64,000 nt of DNA from Lutibacter sp. A80 (GTDB lineage: Bacteria; Bacteroidota; Bacteroidia; Flavobacteriales; Flavobacteriaceae): assembly GCF_022429645.1 (NCBI RefSeq), contig NZ_CP092480.1, positions 1,594,501 through 1,658,500 of the forward strand, read 5' to 3'. Position numbers and translations under genes: made by a program. The notes under the pieces were generated by a model. The model was not told the origin of the DNA and did not search any database. It saw only the letters and a program-made list of their open reading frames with translations. Below, piece by piece: positions 18,608-53,478 of this stretch (positions within the stretch are counted from its first letter, which is position 1; each line of letters starts with the position of its first letter).

Positions 18608-18615
18608 CAAATATA
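18608..18615 (-). promoter_or_regulatory. -7 box of radC
   Basis: Minus strand TATATTTG, exact TAnnTTTG, 14 bases before the ATG at 18593. Confidence 0.58.
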
Positions 18616-18639: not shown

Positions 18640-18742
18640 AAATAAAAAAAGAGAGCTATTAAAAATAGCTCTCTTAAACTTAATTCAACTAATTTAAATT
18701 TTTGTGTTAGATATACAAACTCATTATGCTTATTAAACACTA
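18640..18742 (-). ncRNA. Candidate small RNA downstream of susD2
   Basis: Inferred only from flanking signals: a promoter-like segment (-7-like TATATTTA at 18749-18756, with TTGGTCGAA 24 bases upstream of it) and an intrinsic terminator at 18644-18675. Between them lie about 70 bases with no gene except a five-codon ATG frame (MSLYI). The upstream susCD2 transcript already has its own strong terminator, so the second one needs its own transcript or is a relic of a lost gene. No known RNA family is recognised. Confidence 0.35.
18644..18675 (-). terminator. Intrinsic terminator without an assigned gene
   Basis: On the minus strand a perfect 12-bp stem (AAGAGAGCTATT / AATAGCTCTCTT) with a 3-base loop is followed by a run of T. 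On the plus strand no T-run follows, so it works in the minus direction. Confidence 0.85.
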
Positions 18743-18748
18743 TATAAA

Positions 18749-18789
18749 TAAATATAATTTTTAAGAAATTATTAAAAAATTTCGACCAA
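18749..18789 (-). promoter_or_regulatory. Promoter-like segment of the candidate small RNA
   Basis: On the minus strand TTGGTCGAA (18781-18789) is followed after 24 bases by TATATTTA (18749-18756), one base from TAnnTTTG. The same 9-mer and the same octamer, 30 bases apart, stand upstream of susC2. Confidence 0.35.
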
Positions 18790-18911
18790 CAACCAAATTA
18801 AAATGATGAATAAACGTAAAAAAAAATTATAAGCACTGATACCCAATGTTCTAAAATTTAATTTTTAGTTTAAACTAAATAAAGCTAATTAGTTCAACTT
18901 TAAAATAATCT

Positions 18912-18959
18912 TTATTAAAAATAAATAGCCAAAACTTAGAATTCTAAGTTTTGGCTATT
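18912..18959 (-). terminator. Rho-independent terminator of the susCD2 operon
   Basis: A perfect 16-bp stem (AATAGCCAAAACTTAG / CTAAGTTTTGGCTATT, 18924-18939 and 18944-18959) with an AATT loop; on the minus strand it runs into TTATTTTTAAT. It begins 28 bases after the susD2 stop. Confidence 0.93.
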
Positions 18960-18987
18960 CGTACTTTATAAAAATTTTAAATAAATT

Positions 18988-20655
18988 TTATTTAGCAAAC
19001 CATAATTTAGTTCCTTGCAAATCATCACCTTGTTCAGATATTGCTTGCGTATAATTAGGATTACTTTGTGCTCCACTACCGTAGCGCATACGTTGTGGGT
19101 ATTCACCATTTAAAGTTCCTAGTTCGTAAATTATAGAATTTGAAACCCCTTGAGATAACTCTGTAGGGTATCCTGTATCTCTAACTACAGCCCATGCTTC
19201 AAAACCATCAGTATAACTTACTAACCAACGTTGTATAGCTATCTTCTCTAATTTTTCATCTAAGGTTCCTACATTAATATTTGCTGCATCTTGAGTACTA
19301 ATATAGGTTTCTACATCACCATCAGAAATTTCCCAAATCTTCATTGCTTCTCTAATTCCATCAGCAAATAAAGTTTGAGGATCACCAGAACCTATTCCTT
19401 TTAATGCTGCTTCTGCTTGTAAAAAGTAAGCCTCTGCACTTGTCAAAACAATTTCTGGATAAACATCTTCACCTTCTCCCATTTTTTGAGTAATTAATTC
19501 TCCTGGTGCACTATACATATCTATTTTAACCATTGGCTGAATATCACTATTTACTCTTGTAGGCTGTCCAATATATTGTCCTTCTTCAACATTAATTGTA
19601 GTAATATCTCCAGAAGTAGTTGCTGTGTAAACAGCTCCTGCTTCATCTAGAGCTCCCATTAAGAAATCTAATCTTTGTTGGTCATCACCATCTGATACTT
19701 CAAAAGTAAATTCTCCTCCAACAGCTGGTGAAGCATAAATTGGAAGTCTTGGGTCTTGAGTATTCTTTAATTGGTTTATTAAAGTAGCTCCAACAGACCA
19801 ATATCCACCACCAGGAAAATTATTCCATACATCTCCATAAGCAGCTGCACCCCACTGACCAATAATATCATCTTTTTCCATAAGTACACTTCCTGAAGAA
19901 GCATCTAATAGAGGAGCACTTAAAGCTGAAGTAATAGTACTTGAAGCAAAATCATCTCCTGGTGCACCTAATGCACGCATACCTACTCTTAATTTTAATG
20001 TATTTGCTAATTTTTTCCATTTTTGTAAATCTCCTCCACAATATACATCATTTTCATCTACGTCATCTACACCAGAACCTGTTCTTTCTGAATCACCAAT
20101 TATTGCCATTGCTTCGTCCAAATCTGCAATAATCCCTTTATAAATATCACTTTGAGCATCGTATTTAGGAGTTAAGTTACCATCAATACCAGCTTCGCTA
20201 TATGGTAACATTCCAAAAGTATCTGTGTACATTTGATAATACAATGATTTCATAATTAAACCCATTGCATACATTTTTTCATTTTCAAATTCTGCACCAG
20301 TTTTTGTTAAATCCATAAATCCTTTAATGTCTCCAAAGTAACCAGCTAACCAATCCCAAGCGGCATCTGTATAACCTCTATTGTAAGTATAACCTAATCC
20401 ATCATTCCACCAAGAAACATTGCTTCCAAATGTAAAATGTCCGGCATATCTATCTACATGAATTAAATGCGCTCTCCAATATGCATAACGACCCGGAGCA
20501 TATAAAGTATGTTGTGGTTGCGTTATAAAAAATTTAGCACTTAAATCTGAAGATTCAAATCCTTGATTGTTTGTGTTTATTTCATCAAAATCTCCAGTAC
20601 ATGAAAATGTGAAGAACATTAAAACACTATATATTGTTATTTTTATATTTTTCAT
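18988..20655 (-). CDS. SusD-like nutrient-binding outer-membrane lipoprotein (SusD-like 2 type)
   Basis: A 555-residue lipoprotein with the lipobox TFSC (Cys19) followed by acidic residues (TGDFDEIN), compatible with surface export. The opening FDEINTNNQGFESSDLS, the TDTFGMLPYSEAG motif and the late VLTSAEAYFLQAEAALKG region identify the SusD-like 2 subgroup rather than classical SusD. It follows susC2 after 11 bases and ends the locus with a strong terminator. With SusC2 it would bind and import oligosaccharides from the adjacent enzyme genes, most likely N-glycan fragments. Confidence 0.93.
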   Translation of the reverse strand: MKNIKITIYSVLMFFTFSCTGDFDEINTNNQGFESSDLSAKFFITQPQHTLYAPGRYAYWRAHLIHVDRYAGHFTFGSNVSWWNDGLGYTYNRGYTDAAWDWLAGYFGDIKGFMDLTKTGAEFENEKMYAMGLIMKSLYYQMYTDTFGMLPYSEAGIDGNLTPKYDAQSDIYKGIIADLDEAMAIIGDSERTGSGVDDVDENDVYCGGDLQKWKKLANTLKLRVGMRALGAPGDDFASSTITSALSAPLLDASSGSVLMEKDDIIGQWGAAAYGDVWNNFPGGGYWSVGATLINQLKNTQDPRLPIYASPAVGGEFTFEVSDGDDQQRLDFLMGALDEAGAVYTATTSGDITTINVEEGQYIGQPTRVNSDIQPMVKIDMYSAPGELITQKMGEGEDVYPEIVLTSAEAYFLQAEAALKGIGSGDPQTLFADGIREAMKIWEISDGDVETYISTQDAANINVGTLDEKLEKIAIQRWLVSYTDGFEAWAVVRDTGYPTELSQGVSNSIIYELGTLNGEYPQRMRYGSGAQSNPNYTQAISEQGDDLQGTKLWFAK

Positions 20656-20666
20656 TTCAAAAATTA

Positions 20667-23600
20667 TTAAAATTTAACGTTTAAACTTAAACCTAAACTA
20701 CTTGTTGTTGGCAAGTTGTAGAACAATACTCCTTGTGCAAAATTACTAGTTGAATAACTTGCTTCTGGGTCAAAATTATCACTTTTCTTATATAAAAAGA
20801 ATAAGTTTCTTCCTGTTAAACTTAAAGAAGCATTTTTAATAAATGTTTTTTCTAACATAGCGTTTGGGAAGTGGTATGATAAACTTACCTCTCTTAAACG
20901 TGCATTTGTTTGTTCAATTATATATTCTGAAGCAATACCACTTACAGCACCCCAATAATCTTGAGCACTAATATTTGTAGTGTTTTGTGTTAGAACTCCA
21001 TCATTGTCCCAAACACCGTCAACAGTAATTCCTCCTTCTCTGTATTGTAATGTTTTTTTAGAAACACCGTTAGCATCTAAAGCAGCATCTGTACCTGAAT
21101 ACACTTCTCCTCCAATTCTAAAGTCAATTAAAAAGTTTAATGAAAAGTCTTTATAATTAAACGTGTTACTAAATCCACCAGTCATATCTGGTTGATAATT
21201 TCCTAATTTTACTCTCTCTTCACTAGCTTGTGGACGACCAGTTGCTGTTAATAACAGTTGTCCATCTTCTGTAGTTTTCCAAGTTTTTCCGTAAATATCT
21301 CCAAATCCTTCACCTACTTGAGCTCTTACATCAACTACTCCACTATTAGTAGAACTAAATTGAAAATAATCTTGACCGTCAATTAAACTTACAAGTTCGT
21401 TTTCATTTTTAGCTAAGTTTAAAGAAACATCCCATCTAAAATTATCATTCATTATTGGAGTACCTCCTATCATAAATTCAAAACCTTTATTTGATACTTC
21501 ACCTACGTTTTCTCTAAAATATGAAAATCCAGTTGCAGGATCTACTGGTACATCAAAAATTAAATCTTTAGATGATATTGAGTAATATGTAAAATCTGCA
21601 AATAATCTATTGTCTAAAGCTTTTATTTCAAAACCAATTTCAGATGAAGTTACATCTTCAGGTTTTAAGCTTTCACTATATTTAATATTTGGAGTGTTAA
21701 CAGTAATATTACCTAAATAACCACTTGAAGCAACACCATATAAGTTTACAATTTGCTGAGGGGCGGTATCGTTACCTACATTGGCATAACTTAAACGTAA
21801 TTTTGCCATATTAATTTTTGAAGACTCTCCAAAATCAAACATTCTATCTAATAACATACTTAAACTAGCAGATTTATAGAAATAAGATCTATTTTCACTA
21901 GAAAGCGCTGAAGACCAGTCATTTCTACCTGTTAAATCTAAATATACCATTCCTCTATAAGCTAAAGAACCAGAACCGTAAATAGAATTTACTTTCTTTT
22001 CAATTAAATCTGATTGATTAACGCTTAATTTTAATGCATCTGTATTTCCTATAAAGTATTTTCCAGGAATTTTAAAATCAGATCCTGAAATATTAGAAGA
22101 TCTAACAGTAGAATGTAATGCATTTCCACCTATATTTAAAGCTAAGTTGAAATCGTCATTAAGATCATCATTATACATTAATAAAAAATCATAATTTGTT
22201 TCAGAACGTTCGTTAGAGCCATAACTTATGGTTCCTTGTGGGTAAAAATGATGTCCAACAGCATGGTACCCTTCAGTATCATGTGAAACTACATCTGTAC
22301 CTACTCTAACAAATGCCTTAAAGGTATCTGAAAAATCATACTGAGCTTTAGCAAAACCTGAAAAACGTTTTCTTTTATCCTCGTTTTTATCTTCATAAAG
22401 AATCCAATAAGGGTTACCTCCACTATTTGTAGCTGAAAGCACTCCATAACCTTCATCAAGGTTTTGATATGTTTTTAAATCGTTTATATCAATATTTCTA
22501 TTTATACCGTATACATAAGCCATAATACCTTCAGTACCTTGAGAAATACGATTTTTAGCATCTTGTAAAAAGTATGTTACTTTAGCATCTAACGTAAATT
22601 TGTCGGTAATTTTACTAAAACCTCTTAAATTAAAGTTATTTCTATCAACAGTAGAGTTTGGAACAATCGCATCCATTGAAGTATTAGAATAAGAAAAACG
22701 CAATGAAGAATTCTCGTTACTATTACTAATTGCTAAAGTATTAACAATACTAGATCCTGTATCGAAAAAATCTTTTACATTATCTGGCTGTGCCACATAA
22801 GGTCTAGTTTCTCCATTGTAATATAACTGATCAGATCCATCAAATTTTGGTCCCCAAGAACCATTACTTTTTAATTCGGTTAAATCAGTAGCAAAAGCAC
22901 CATCTTTACCAGCTCCATATTCATTTTGATATTCTGGTAAAAACAATGGATTTTGGAAAGAAATATTTGAAGATAATGAAATACCTAATCCTTTATCTTT
23001 ACTTCCTTTTTTGGTTGTAATTAAAATTACACCATTACTTGCTCTTGACCCGTAAAGTGCTGCTGCATTAGGTCCTTTTAATACAGACATAGACTCAATA
23101 TCATCTGAGTTTAAATCTGAAATACCAGTACCTAAATCTGACTTACTATACTCTCCTGAACCAGATCCATTTGCAGAACCAATACCTGAATTGTCAATTG
23201 GCACACCATCCACCACATATAATGGTTGGTTATTACCTGTAATTGAGTTATTACCTCTAATTACAACCCTTGTTCCTCCTCCTGGCCCAGAAGCAGATTG
23301 AGTAATTACAACCCCTGCTACTTTTCCTGAAAGTGAATTAACAACATTAGATTCTTTTGCTAACGAAACTGAAGATCCATCAACTTCAGAAACAGAATAA
23401 CCTAATGATTTTTTTTCTCTTGAAATACCTAATGCAGTTACAACAACTTCGTCAAGAGTCTCTGCACTTTGAACTAAGGCAACATTTATTGTCCTTTTTC
23501 CATTTACAGTAATTTCTTGGTCTGCATAACCTAAAAATGAAAATTGTAATATCGCTGTATCACTATTTACATCAATACTGTAATTACCATCAAAATCTGA

Positions 23601-23759
23601 TGAAACACCCGTAGACGTACCTTTAATAATTACATTAACACCTGGTAACGGAACACCGTCCGTAGCATCAGTAATAGTTCCTGTTACTGTTTGGGCTTGA
23701 ATACTAGCATTGGCTAATAAACAAAAAACTAAAAACAGTTTTAGTACTTTTTGTATCAT
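20667..23759 (-). CDS. SusC/RagA-family TonB-linked outer-membrane transporter
   Basis: A 1030-residue TonB-dependent importer. It has a signal peptide (to about residue 22, ASIQAQ), a carboxypeptidase-D regulatory-like domain (VTGTITDATDGVPLPGVNV), the LDEVVVTALGIS segment, a plug with LKGPNAAALYGSRASNGV, and a barrel ending SLGLSLNVKF. LGISREKKSLGYSVSEV is typical of the SusC group paired with SusD-like 2 proteins. It forms the transport module of the large PUL; a ~180-base region separates it from the enzyme genes and holds its own promoter, so transport and enzymes may be expressed separately. Confidence 0.95.
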   Translation of the reverse strand: MIQKVLKLFLVFCLLANASIQAQTVTGTITDATDGVPLPGVNVIIKGTSTGVSSDFDGNYSIDVNSDTAILQFSFLGYADQEITVNGKRTINVALVQSAETLDEVVVTALGISREKKSLGYSVSEVDGSSVSLAKESNVVNSLSGKVAGVVITQSASGPGGGTRVVIRGNNSITGNNQPLYVVDGVPIDNSGIGSANGSGSGEYSKSDLGTGISDLNSDDIESMSVLKGPNAAALYGSRASNGVILITTKKGSKDKGLGISLSSNISFQNPLFLPEYQNEYGAGKDGAFATDLTELKSNGSWGPKFDGSDQLYYNGETRPYVAQPDNVKDFFDTGSSIVNTLAISNSNENSSLRFSYSNTSMDAIVPNSTVDRNNFNLRGFSKITDKFTLDAKVTYFLQDAKNRISQGTEGIMAYVYGINRNIDINDLKTYQNLDEGYGVLSATNSGGNPYWILYEDKNEDKRKRFSGFAKAQYDFSDTFKAFVRVGTDVVSHDTEGYHAVGHHFYPQGTISYGSNERSETNYDFLLMYNDDLNDDFNLALNIGGNALHSTVRSSNISGSDFKIPGKYFIGNTDALKLSVNQSDLIEKKVNSIYGSGSLAYRGMVYLDLTGRNDWSSALSSENRSYFYKSASLSMLLDRMFDFGESSKINMAKLRLSYANVGNDTAPQQIVNLYGVASSGYLGNITVNTPNIKYSESLKPEDVTSSEIGFEIKALDNRLFADFTYYSISSKDLIFDVPVDPATGFSYFRENVGEVSNKGFEFMIGGTPIMNDNFRWDVSLNLAKNENELVSLIDGQDYFQFSSTNSGVVDVRAQVGEGFGDIYGKTWKTTEDGQLLLTATGRPQASEERVKLGNYQPDMTGGFSNTFNYKDFSLNFLIDFRIGGEVYSGTDAALDANGVSKKTLQYREGGITVDGVWDNDGVLTQNTTNISAQDYWGAVSGIASEYIIEQTNARLREVSLSYHFPNAMLEKTFIKNASLSLTGRNLFFLYKKSDNFDPEASYSTSNFAQGVLFYNLPTTSSLGLSLNVKF

Positions 23760-23788: not shown

Positions 23789-23835
23789 TAAATATAACAA
23801 AAAATTAACATAAATTAAGTTAAAAATTCGACCAA
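23789..23835 (-). promoter_or_regulatory. Putative promoter/operator of susC2
   Basis: On the minus strand TTGGTCGAA (23827-23835) precedes a -7-like TATATTTA (23789-23796) by 30 bases; the ATG follows after 29 more. The arrangement is repeated at 18749-18789. Confidence 0.4.
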
Positions 23836-23941
23836 TAACACCTAAAGACAGTTAAATGAATTTTGTTTCAGTATTAAAGAAATATCAAACATTTAAGCGT
23901 TAATTTAGCATTAAATTTAAACTCTTATTTAACCTTAAATT

Positions 23942-51694: not shown

Positions 51695-52777
51695 ATGTCG
51701 GTAACAAATTATAAAGCCACATCAATTTCATCTAAAATTCAAGAAATATCTTTAAGACATCATATAATATTTTGGTCTTTATATTTTATTTTTAACACAT
51801 TCCGTTGGGGAAGTTATTTTGATGATTACCTATATTCTCTAAAAACAAACCTTATTGGCTTTCCAATACACATGACTTTAAGTTATTTAAATGTATATGT
51901 GTTTATGCCTAATTTTATATTTAAAAAAAAATACTTAACCTATATTATTTTACTTGTACTGTCTCTTTTTACCATGTTACTTGTAAAGTTTAATTTAACA
52001 TATTACTTAGTAAGTGAAAATGTTTGGCCTGAAGGAACCGAAGTTATTAGCAAGTTAACCTTAAATTATTCTATAGATATGATGATTGGTGAGTTGTATG
52101 TAATTACGTTTGTTACTGCAATTAAAATTACCATGGATTGGTTAAAGGAACATAAAAGAGTTACGGATTTAGAAAAAACACAGCTAGAAACCGAATTATT
52201 ATTTTTACGAACTCAAATTTCTCCTCATTTCTTTTTTAATACCTTAAACAATATTTATTCACTTTCTTTAGAAAACTCTAAAAAAACACCAAAAATAATT
52301 CTGAAACTATCAGAGTTAATGCGTTATTTTTTATACGAAACAAAAAAAAGTAAGCAAACTTTAGAAAAAGAAATTATTAGCATTCAAAATTATTTAGACT
52401 TAGAGCGTATTAGATTTGATAATAATTTAGAAGTAAATATGACTATTTCTGGAGATATATCAAACAAAAAAATTGCTCCAATGCTATTACTTTCCTTTAT
52501 TGAAAACGCATTTAAACACGGTGCAAACAAAAATATAGGTAAAACTAAAATTGATATTGATTTTTTAATTAAAGATGATTTTCTTTACTTTACAATATCA
52601 AACCCAATACCAACTACAACAACACAGAAACAACATGAAGAAAAAACTACAGGTGGAATTGGTTTAGAAAATGTAAAAAAAAGGTTAGCTTTGGGTTATC
52701 AAAAAAAAGAATACAATTTAAATATTGAACAAAAAAACAATTTATTTATAGTGGCTCTTAAAATTAAACTAAAATGA
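51695..52777 (+). CDS. LytS-type sensor histidine kinase
   Basis: A 360-residue membrane sensor kinase of the PF06580 (His_kinase) type. About four transmembrane helices lie in residues 22-148, then a short coiled-coil (LEKTQLETELLFLRTQ). The phospho-acceptor box is ISPHFFFNTLNNIYSL (His178), followed by PMLLLSFIENAFKHG (N-box) and GGIGLENVKKRL (G-box). It overlaps the response-regulator gene by 4 bases (ATGA). It is divergent from the PUL, which makes it a candidate sensor for that locus; no periplasmic ligand domain is visible, so it may sense a membrane or transporter signal. Confidence 0.93.
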   Translation: MSVTNYKATSISSKIQEISLRHHIIFWSLYFIFNTFRWGSYFDDYLYSLKTNLIGFPIHMTLSYLNVYVFMPNFIFKKKYLTYIILLVLSLFTMLLVKFNLTYYLVSENVWPEGTEVISKLTLNYSIDMMIGELYVITFVTAIKITMDWLKEHKRVTDLEKTQLETELLFLRTQISPHFFFNTLNNIYSLSLENSKKTPKIILKLSELMRYFLYETKKSKQTLEKEIISIQNYLDLERIRFDNNLEVNMTISGDISNKKIAPMLLLSFIENAFKHGANKNIGKTKIDIDFLIKDDFLYFTISNPIPTTTTQKQHEEKTTGGIGLENVKKRLALGYQKKEYNLNIEQKNNLFIVALKIKLK

Positions 52778-53478
52778 AAACAACCTGCGTTATAATTGAT
52801 GATGAACCCCTAGCAATAAATGTTATAAAAAATCATTTAAAAGAATTTAATGATATAGAATTAGTAAAAACTTTTACTAACGCTGTTGAAGCTTTATCTT
52901 TTTTTAAAAATAATGCGGTTGATCTTATTTTTTTAGATATAAACATGCCTTTATTGGATGGTTTAAATTTTATAAAATCCCTAGAAAAAAAGCCACTTAT
53001 AATTATTACCACAGCACATATTGAATATGCTGTAGAATCTTACGAATTAGATGTTTTAGATTATTTGGTAAAACCTATTCCATTTCCAAGATTTGTAAAG
53101 GCAATAAACAAAGTTTCTAAAAATTTAAACAAACAAACAGTAAACAAACAACAACCTGAAAAACTATATTTTTTTATCAAAATTGATAAAAAGAAAATGA
53201 AAAAAATCTATTTAGATGAAATTTTAGTTGTTGAAAGTTTAAAAGACTATTTAAAAATAACCACTGTTGATAATAGATTTATTATACACCAAACCCTTTC
53301 AAGTTTTACCAAACAACTACCTCAAGATAACTTTATACGCATACATAGATCCTATACAATTGCTATTGATAAAATTGATACTATAGAAGGAAATAGCGTT
53401 GAAATAGCTGGGGTTAGATATCCTTTTGGAAGAACTTATTGCGAAGAAGTAAAAAATAAAATTTTAAATTTATATTAA
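52774..53478 (+). CDS. LytTR-family response regulator
   Basis: A 234-residue two-domain regulator. The receiver domain has the acidic pair in VIIDDEPLA and the phospho-acceptor in LIFLDINMPLLDG (Asp55), with the conserved Lys in YLVKPIPF. The C-terminal LytTR DNA-binding domain includes IYLDEILVVESLKDYLKI, NFIRIHRSYTIAIDKI and VEIAGVRYPFGRTY. LytTR proteins bind paired direct repeats, often upstream of nearby operons. No HTCS, AraC or ECF/anti-sigma gene is in the window, so this pair is the best candidate PUL regulator. Confidence 0.94.
   Translation: MKTTCVIIDDEPLAINVIKNHLKEFNDIELVKTFTNAVEALSFFKNNAVDLIFLDINMPLLDGLNFIKSLEKKPLIIITTAHIEYAVESYELDVLDYLVKPIPFPRFVKAINKVSKNLNKQTVNKQQPEKLYFFIKIDKKKMKKIYLDEILVVESLKDYLKITTVDNRFIIHQTLSSFTKQLPQDNFIRIHRSYTIAIDKIDTIEGNSVEIAGVRYPFGRTYCEEVKNKILNLY

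Follow-up and report, generated by a model that had tools for sequence, protein, structure and literature searches.

A probable small RNA gene with a susC-type promoter beside a putative N-glycan utilisation locus of Lutibacter

Most of what is known about PUL-associated small RNAs comes from gut Bacteroides, and marine Flavobacteriaceae are little covered. In Bacteroides thetaiotaomicron, GibS is a 145-nt RNA that is induced by GlcNAc and carries the promoter element PM2 (PMC7366714), and the FopS RNAs repress susC of the high-mannose N-glycan PUL72 (PMC11697453). Here we analysed a window of 64,000 nucleotides from Lutibacter sp. A80 (genome G000), in which a sequence-only reading had proposed a small RNA; the candidate segment is placed between susD2 and radC, all on the minus strand. 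The nearest named matches of SusD2 come from L. litoralis (83%) and L. oceani (78%), and these closest relatives by themselves point to a Lutibacter genome. The best current reading of the segment, to which we give a probability of about 0.62, is that of a gene for a small non-coding RNA, ~95 nt long, with its own promoter and terminator, driven together with the PUL by a LytTR regulator and acting in trans; judged from the DNA, the small RNA is probable rather than proven. The features are as follows.

18608 to 18615, minus strand: the -7 box of radC itself, TATATTTG, distinct from the small RNA and recognised by sequence, with a comparable box in members of the genus that have no PUL at this place
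18644 to 18738, minus strand: predicted small RNA of ~95 nt, 5' end near 18738, its start placed 6 nt downstream of the conserved -7 box and its end in the T-run
18649 to 18675, minus strand: intrinsic terminator of the small RNA, stem AAGAGAGCTATT-TTT-AATAGCTCTCTT of 12 pairs, plus T-run
18745 to 18752, minus strand: probable -7 box TTTATTTA, at +28 from half-site B
18749 to 18756, minus strand: box TATATTTA of the sequence-only reading, at +24, present here and not conserved at +24 in G026, G006 and G008
18781 to 18793, minus strand: half-site B GTTGTTGGTCGAA, of the T[AGT]GTCGAA class, containing TTGGTCGAA (18781-18789) of the sequence-only reading
18806 to 18814, minus strand: half-site A TTTATTCAT, which precedes half-site B by exactly 21 bp
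18923 to 18960, minus strand: terminator of the susCD2 transcript, palindromic and scoring as terminator-like on both strands
18988 to 20655, minus strand: susD2, SusD-like lipoprotein (PF12771, 1e-60)
20667 to 23759, minus strand: susC2, SusC/RagA TonB-linked transporter (TIGR04056, 2.3e-197)
23827 to 23839, minus strand: GTTATTGGTCGAA of the susC2 promoter, whose TATATTTA lies at 23789-23796
51695 to 52777, plus strand: histidine kinase partnering the LytTR regulator (PF06580, 5.2e-23)
52774 to 53478, plus strand: LytTR response regulator and candidate activator (PF04397, 8.3e-18, and PF00072), with syntenic orthologues in G026, G006 and G008

The PUL (~18988-51568, about 33 kb) encodes PNGase F, several GH92 enzymes, GH3, GH97, GH29, GH130 and an asparaginase-type enzyme, a content that makes an N-glycan PUL the natural reading. 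The interval from the PUL to trkA contains the histidine kinase and the LytTR response regulator, both on the plus strand (51695-53478). The sequence-only reading had noted a strong minus-strand terminator with no gene ahead of it, the susCD2 transcript ending earlier. All of this was borne out: the stem runs from 18675 to 18649 with 12 pairs and a T-run, a separate terminator (18923-18960) serves the susCD2 transcript, and no minus-strand ORF of at least 80 aa lies between the two. The predicted RNA is antisense to no long ORF and lies on the same strand as susD2, downstream of it. The next gene on this strand is radC (ATG ~18593), ~50 nt past the small-RNA terminator, and this order would suit a regulated leader or attenuator in which transcription from the LytTR promoter reaches radC past a conditional terminator. 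However, radC has a box of its own just before its start codon, which has its counterpart in genus members without the PUL here, and no alternative antiterminator was identified; to our knowledge, radC has no link to glycan use. We regard such a leader as very unlikely.

A terminator scan found terminator-like sites across the region no more commonly than in shuffled sequences, so detection by itself proves little and conservation is what counts. The fold of 18643-18739 gave z = -2.6, with the terminator contributing most. Covariation in related genomes, which the sequence-only reading had named as a check, was seen in the terminator stem: across four Lutibacter genomes (G000, G026, G006 and G008), 93.8% of the cells were paired and three pairs had changed on both sides, while none or one pair had done so in a control with the partner slid. 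With four sequences, this covariation is supportive, short of decisive.

The proposed promoter consisted of TTGGTCGAA and TATATTTA in the same order as before susC2, and the stated spacings, 24 before the small RNA and 30 before susC2, proved exact. In the 3.93-Mb genome, TTGGTCGAA is followed by TATATTTA within 15-40 nt at two places only, the small RNA and susC2 (reversed control, 0); singly, TTGGTCGAA occurs 13 times genome-wide versus 65 for the reversed control. The two-part site is a GTTRTTNG direct repeat with a period of exactly 21 bp, followed 28 nt on by a -7 box, and the motif first noticed is one half of it. Half-site A scores 6, 6, 6 and 5 of 7 at 21 bp in the four Lutibacter small-RNA promoters, and TTNNTTT[AG] is found at +28 in all four (TTTATTTA, TTAATTTG, TTTCTTTA and TTTCTTTA). 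The susC2-like promoter is upheld as a prediction, with the qualification that TATATTTA at +24 is not conserved in relatives. This pattern favours 18745-18752 over TATATTTA as the probable conserved -7 box. The box at 18745-18752 deviates at position 2 from TAnnTTTG, the flavobacterial sigma-A box, which lies at -12 to -5 (PMC9723704). Because the conserved box lies at +28, the 5' end is predicted at ~18738, close to the 18742 proposed earlier. About 20 nt that follow the -7 box in G026 and G006 are absent from G000 (window 18740-18750), which shortens the RNA.

Boxes like TATATTTA arise readily in AT-rich DNA, and the terminator scan alone did no better than chance. The promoter-like pair might thus be fortuitous, or a non-functional duplicate of the susC2 promoter, with the terminator a mere backstop against read-through into radC. 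Since the motif pair is confined to two genome sites and both the 21-bp repeat and the +28 box are conserved in four species, we consider this quite improbable.

The same architecture was found before susC genes. T[AGT]GTCGAA lies upstream of 28/70 susC orthologues (reversed control, 2), and these 28 promoters, anchored on that motif, served for counting the +28 box and the 21-bp repeat. A..TTT[AG] stands at +28 in 17 of them, and the upstream GTTRTTNR repeat has its only strong peak at offset 21, with at least 6 of 7 positions matched in 12/28 (background 0.9%). The class (GTTRTTNG at 21 bp, TCGAA, +28 box) is conserved across Flavobacteriaceae in the susC upstream regions L107-L177. A limited literature search found no published description of a susC promoter class with the 21-bp direct repeat, GTTRTTNGTCGAA and the -7 box 28 nt on. 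Within the A80 genome, 51 places lie within 2 mismatches of GTTGTTGGTCGAAA, and five of these are intergenic. Four precede the small RNA, susC2 and the genes for a GH20 hexosaminidase (PF00728, 1.5e-122) and a ROK kinase (PF00480, 1.4e-26); the fifth is a probable chance match. It is plausible that the genes at these sites other than the small RNA (susC2, GH20 and ROK) serve N-glycan or GlcNAc functions. One further susC/susD pair, with TTGGTCGAA upstream of its susC, is present in the PUL of the L. litoralis-like genome (L201:12370-17413; G006:C4, about 88370-93410).

Published LytTR sites consist of two repeats of 9-11 nt with 11-13 nt between them (PMC4847170), and the 21-bp period of the susC promoter class and of the four small-RNA promoters has this geometry. 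A LytTR response-regulator/histidine-kinase pair flanks the PUL in all four genomes, and relatives of this regulator lie near susC in many motif-bearing loci; the motif is missing from some susC orthologues that have a LytTR gene nearby (L111, L120 and L134). Genetic linkage and repeat geometry make the LytTR response regulator linked to the PUL a plausible common regulator of the small RNA and susC2, which would bind at the direct repeat. A second LytTR pair in G008 adjoins nagB (L190 and L239; G008:C1:523433-527457), with the motif and TACATTTA 28 nt downstream.

In a DNA search covering 38 genomes of the genus, matches came from G026 (81% over query 170-391) and G006 (70%), and both begin at the promoter, not at the susD end. 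Conservation sets in near the promoter (~18821), and the preceding spacer is at background level. Against G026, the RNA body (measured over 18740-18676) is 92% identical and the terminator 91%, compared with 59% for the adjacent spacer, 60% for radC fourfold sites and 86% for susD fourfold sites; because the susD sites themselves reach 86%, the value for the body is clear only against the radC sites and the spacer. The corresponding values against G006 are 74% and 79%, compared with 51%, 42% and 63%. Forced alignment of unrelated AT-rich spacer gives ~50%. Promoter and terminator are in place in G008, and the similarity of its body to that of G000 is not significant (score 26; shuffle mean 19.2, maximum 30). 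In all four Lutibacter genomes, the slot after susD consists of a terminator, the promoter motif, a non-coding body of 95-124 nt and a second terminator. The sequence-only reading would have given up the RNA if promoter and terminator were not conserved together in relatives; they are so conserved in three. Its RNA unit of ~100 nt ending at the terminator is upheld as a prediction, the body being conserved in G026 and G006.

In most genus members examined, trkA stands directly upstream of radC and divergent from it, and in G000, G026, G006 and G008 the PUL and the LytTR pair lie between the two genes, an arrangement consistent with insertion of the PUL. Among the radC neighbourhoods read, the small-RNA unit was found only in these four genomes. 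A covariance model run on 397 genomes of the family gave strong matches only in G000 and G006, with G026 and G008 absent among the matches listed, and no convincing match outside Lutibacter. The matches in the other ten genomes (E 3e-4 to 1e-2) were rejected, as they look like gene-end terminators and have no GTCGAA upstream. Two genomes of one genus (L211 and L217) have in common an intergenic segment that carries a terminator and precedes a gene resembling those of secreted proteases; this weak match to the model is possibly another small RNA or a 3' end.

In related genera, the gene following susD is nagB (L109, L131 and L132) or another susC (L108), each led by the same motif. The A80 segment could accordingly be what is left of a LytTR-driven gene, plausibly nagB, since lost from the susD-radC interval, with its promoter and terminator surviving and any transcript non-functional; the insignificant similarity of the body to G008 agrees with such an origin. 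However, the body is conserved beyond the spacer and the radC fourfold sites in G026 and G006, the slot is gene-free in all four genomes, and the body has no credible similarity to nagB flanks, so nagB was rejected as its source. The scar of a deleted gene, which the sequence-only reading had offered as its alternative, is thus weakened by the conservation of the body and retained as the main rival. We hold it to be unlikely, and it keeps an appreciable share of the probability because a motif-led gene occupies the slot in related genera. As a speculation, the RNA may have arisen from a promoter unit like those before nagB and susC in related genera.

The predicted RNA contains no ORF of at least 8 codons in G000, G006 or G008. 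In G000, a GTG-started frame from just upstream of the predicted 5' end reads through the terminator, as a short mRNA for a small peptide might have it, but this frame is interrupted in G026, and together with the lack of ORFs within the RNA this makes a peptide barely credible. At the level of sequence, the segment has features of a stand-alone small RNA: a promoter of its own, recognised as sequence by the 21-bp repeat and the +28 box in four genomes, an intrinsic terminator of its own, and a non-coding body that is constrained in G000, G026 and G006, though not in G008. A search against the gene starts of the PUL region gave no target that recurred consistently in three genomes. Complementarity to the stretch of tmRNA immediately ahead of the tag reading frame scored 32 in G000, above all 318 window segments, but we took it as chance because the score was 27 in G026 and at background in G006 (20).

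The small-RNA reading is supported by the joint conservation of promoter and terminator in four Lutibacter genomes and of the body in three. According to this reading, the promoter carries a two-part direct-repeat site in common with susC2, and the LytTR regulator (52774-53478) probably switches on the small RNA and the PUL upon N-glycan or GlcNAc signals. The RNA would be made from 18738 to 18644 on the minus strand and would most likely base-pair with mRNAs in trans, where it could for instance damp the SusC mRNAs of the PUL itself or competing ones; this role is the likeliest by analogy with FopS and GibS in Bacteroides. More tentatively, a PUL small RNA in the same LytTR regulon as its susC could form a built-in feedback or feed-forward loop, which we consider possible though doubtful. 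Such a loop, if real, would provide an N-glycan utilisation locus in Flavobacteriaceae with its own post-transcriptional arm. The candidate brings a predicted regulator, a defined putative binding site and a testable inducer, and it reveals a susC promoter class common to N-glycan/GlcNAc genes across Flavobacteriaceae.

No credible Rfam match to the small RNA was obtained at gathering or relaxed thresholds. Among flavobacterial RNAs, Rfp18 and other independent small RNAs of Flavobacterium psychrophilum are likewise stand-alone, and Rfp18 is conserved in its genus; Rfp18 concerns proteases, and the available part of that study reports no PUL link (PMC9723704). DonS-type RNAs (PMC7366714) are also small (78-128 nt) and linked to a mucosal-glycan PUL, but they are divergent from and antisense to susC, whereas the candidate lies on the same strand downstream of susD2 and is not of the DonS type. 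The FopS RNAs are similarly linked to an N-glycan PUL, whose susC they target; they comprise 14 paralogues with canonical promoters and a 5' seed, whereas the candidate is a single copy beside its PUL with a PUL-type promoter. GibS differs in its 145-nt length, its conservation within Bacteroides and its PM2-driven expression, where the candidate has no Rfam match, but it too is an intergenic stand-alone RNA, highest on GlcNAc and tied to glycan metabolism (PMC7366714). By these comparisons, the candidate would belong to a known kind, the PUL-linked small RNAs represented by GibS, FopS and DonS, while matching no Rfam family.
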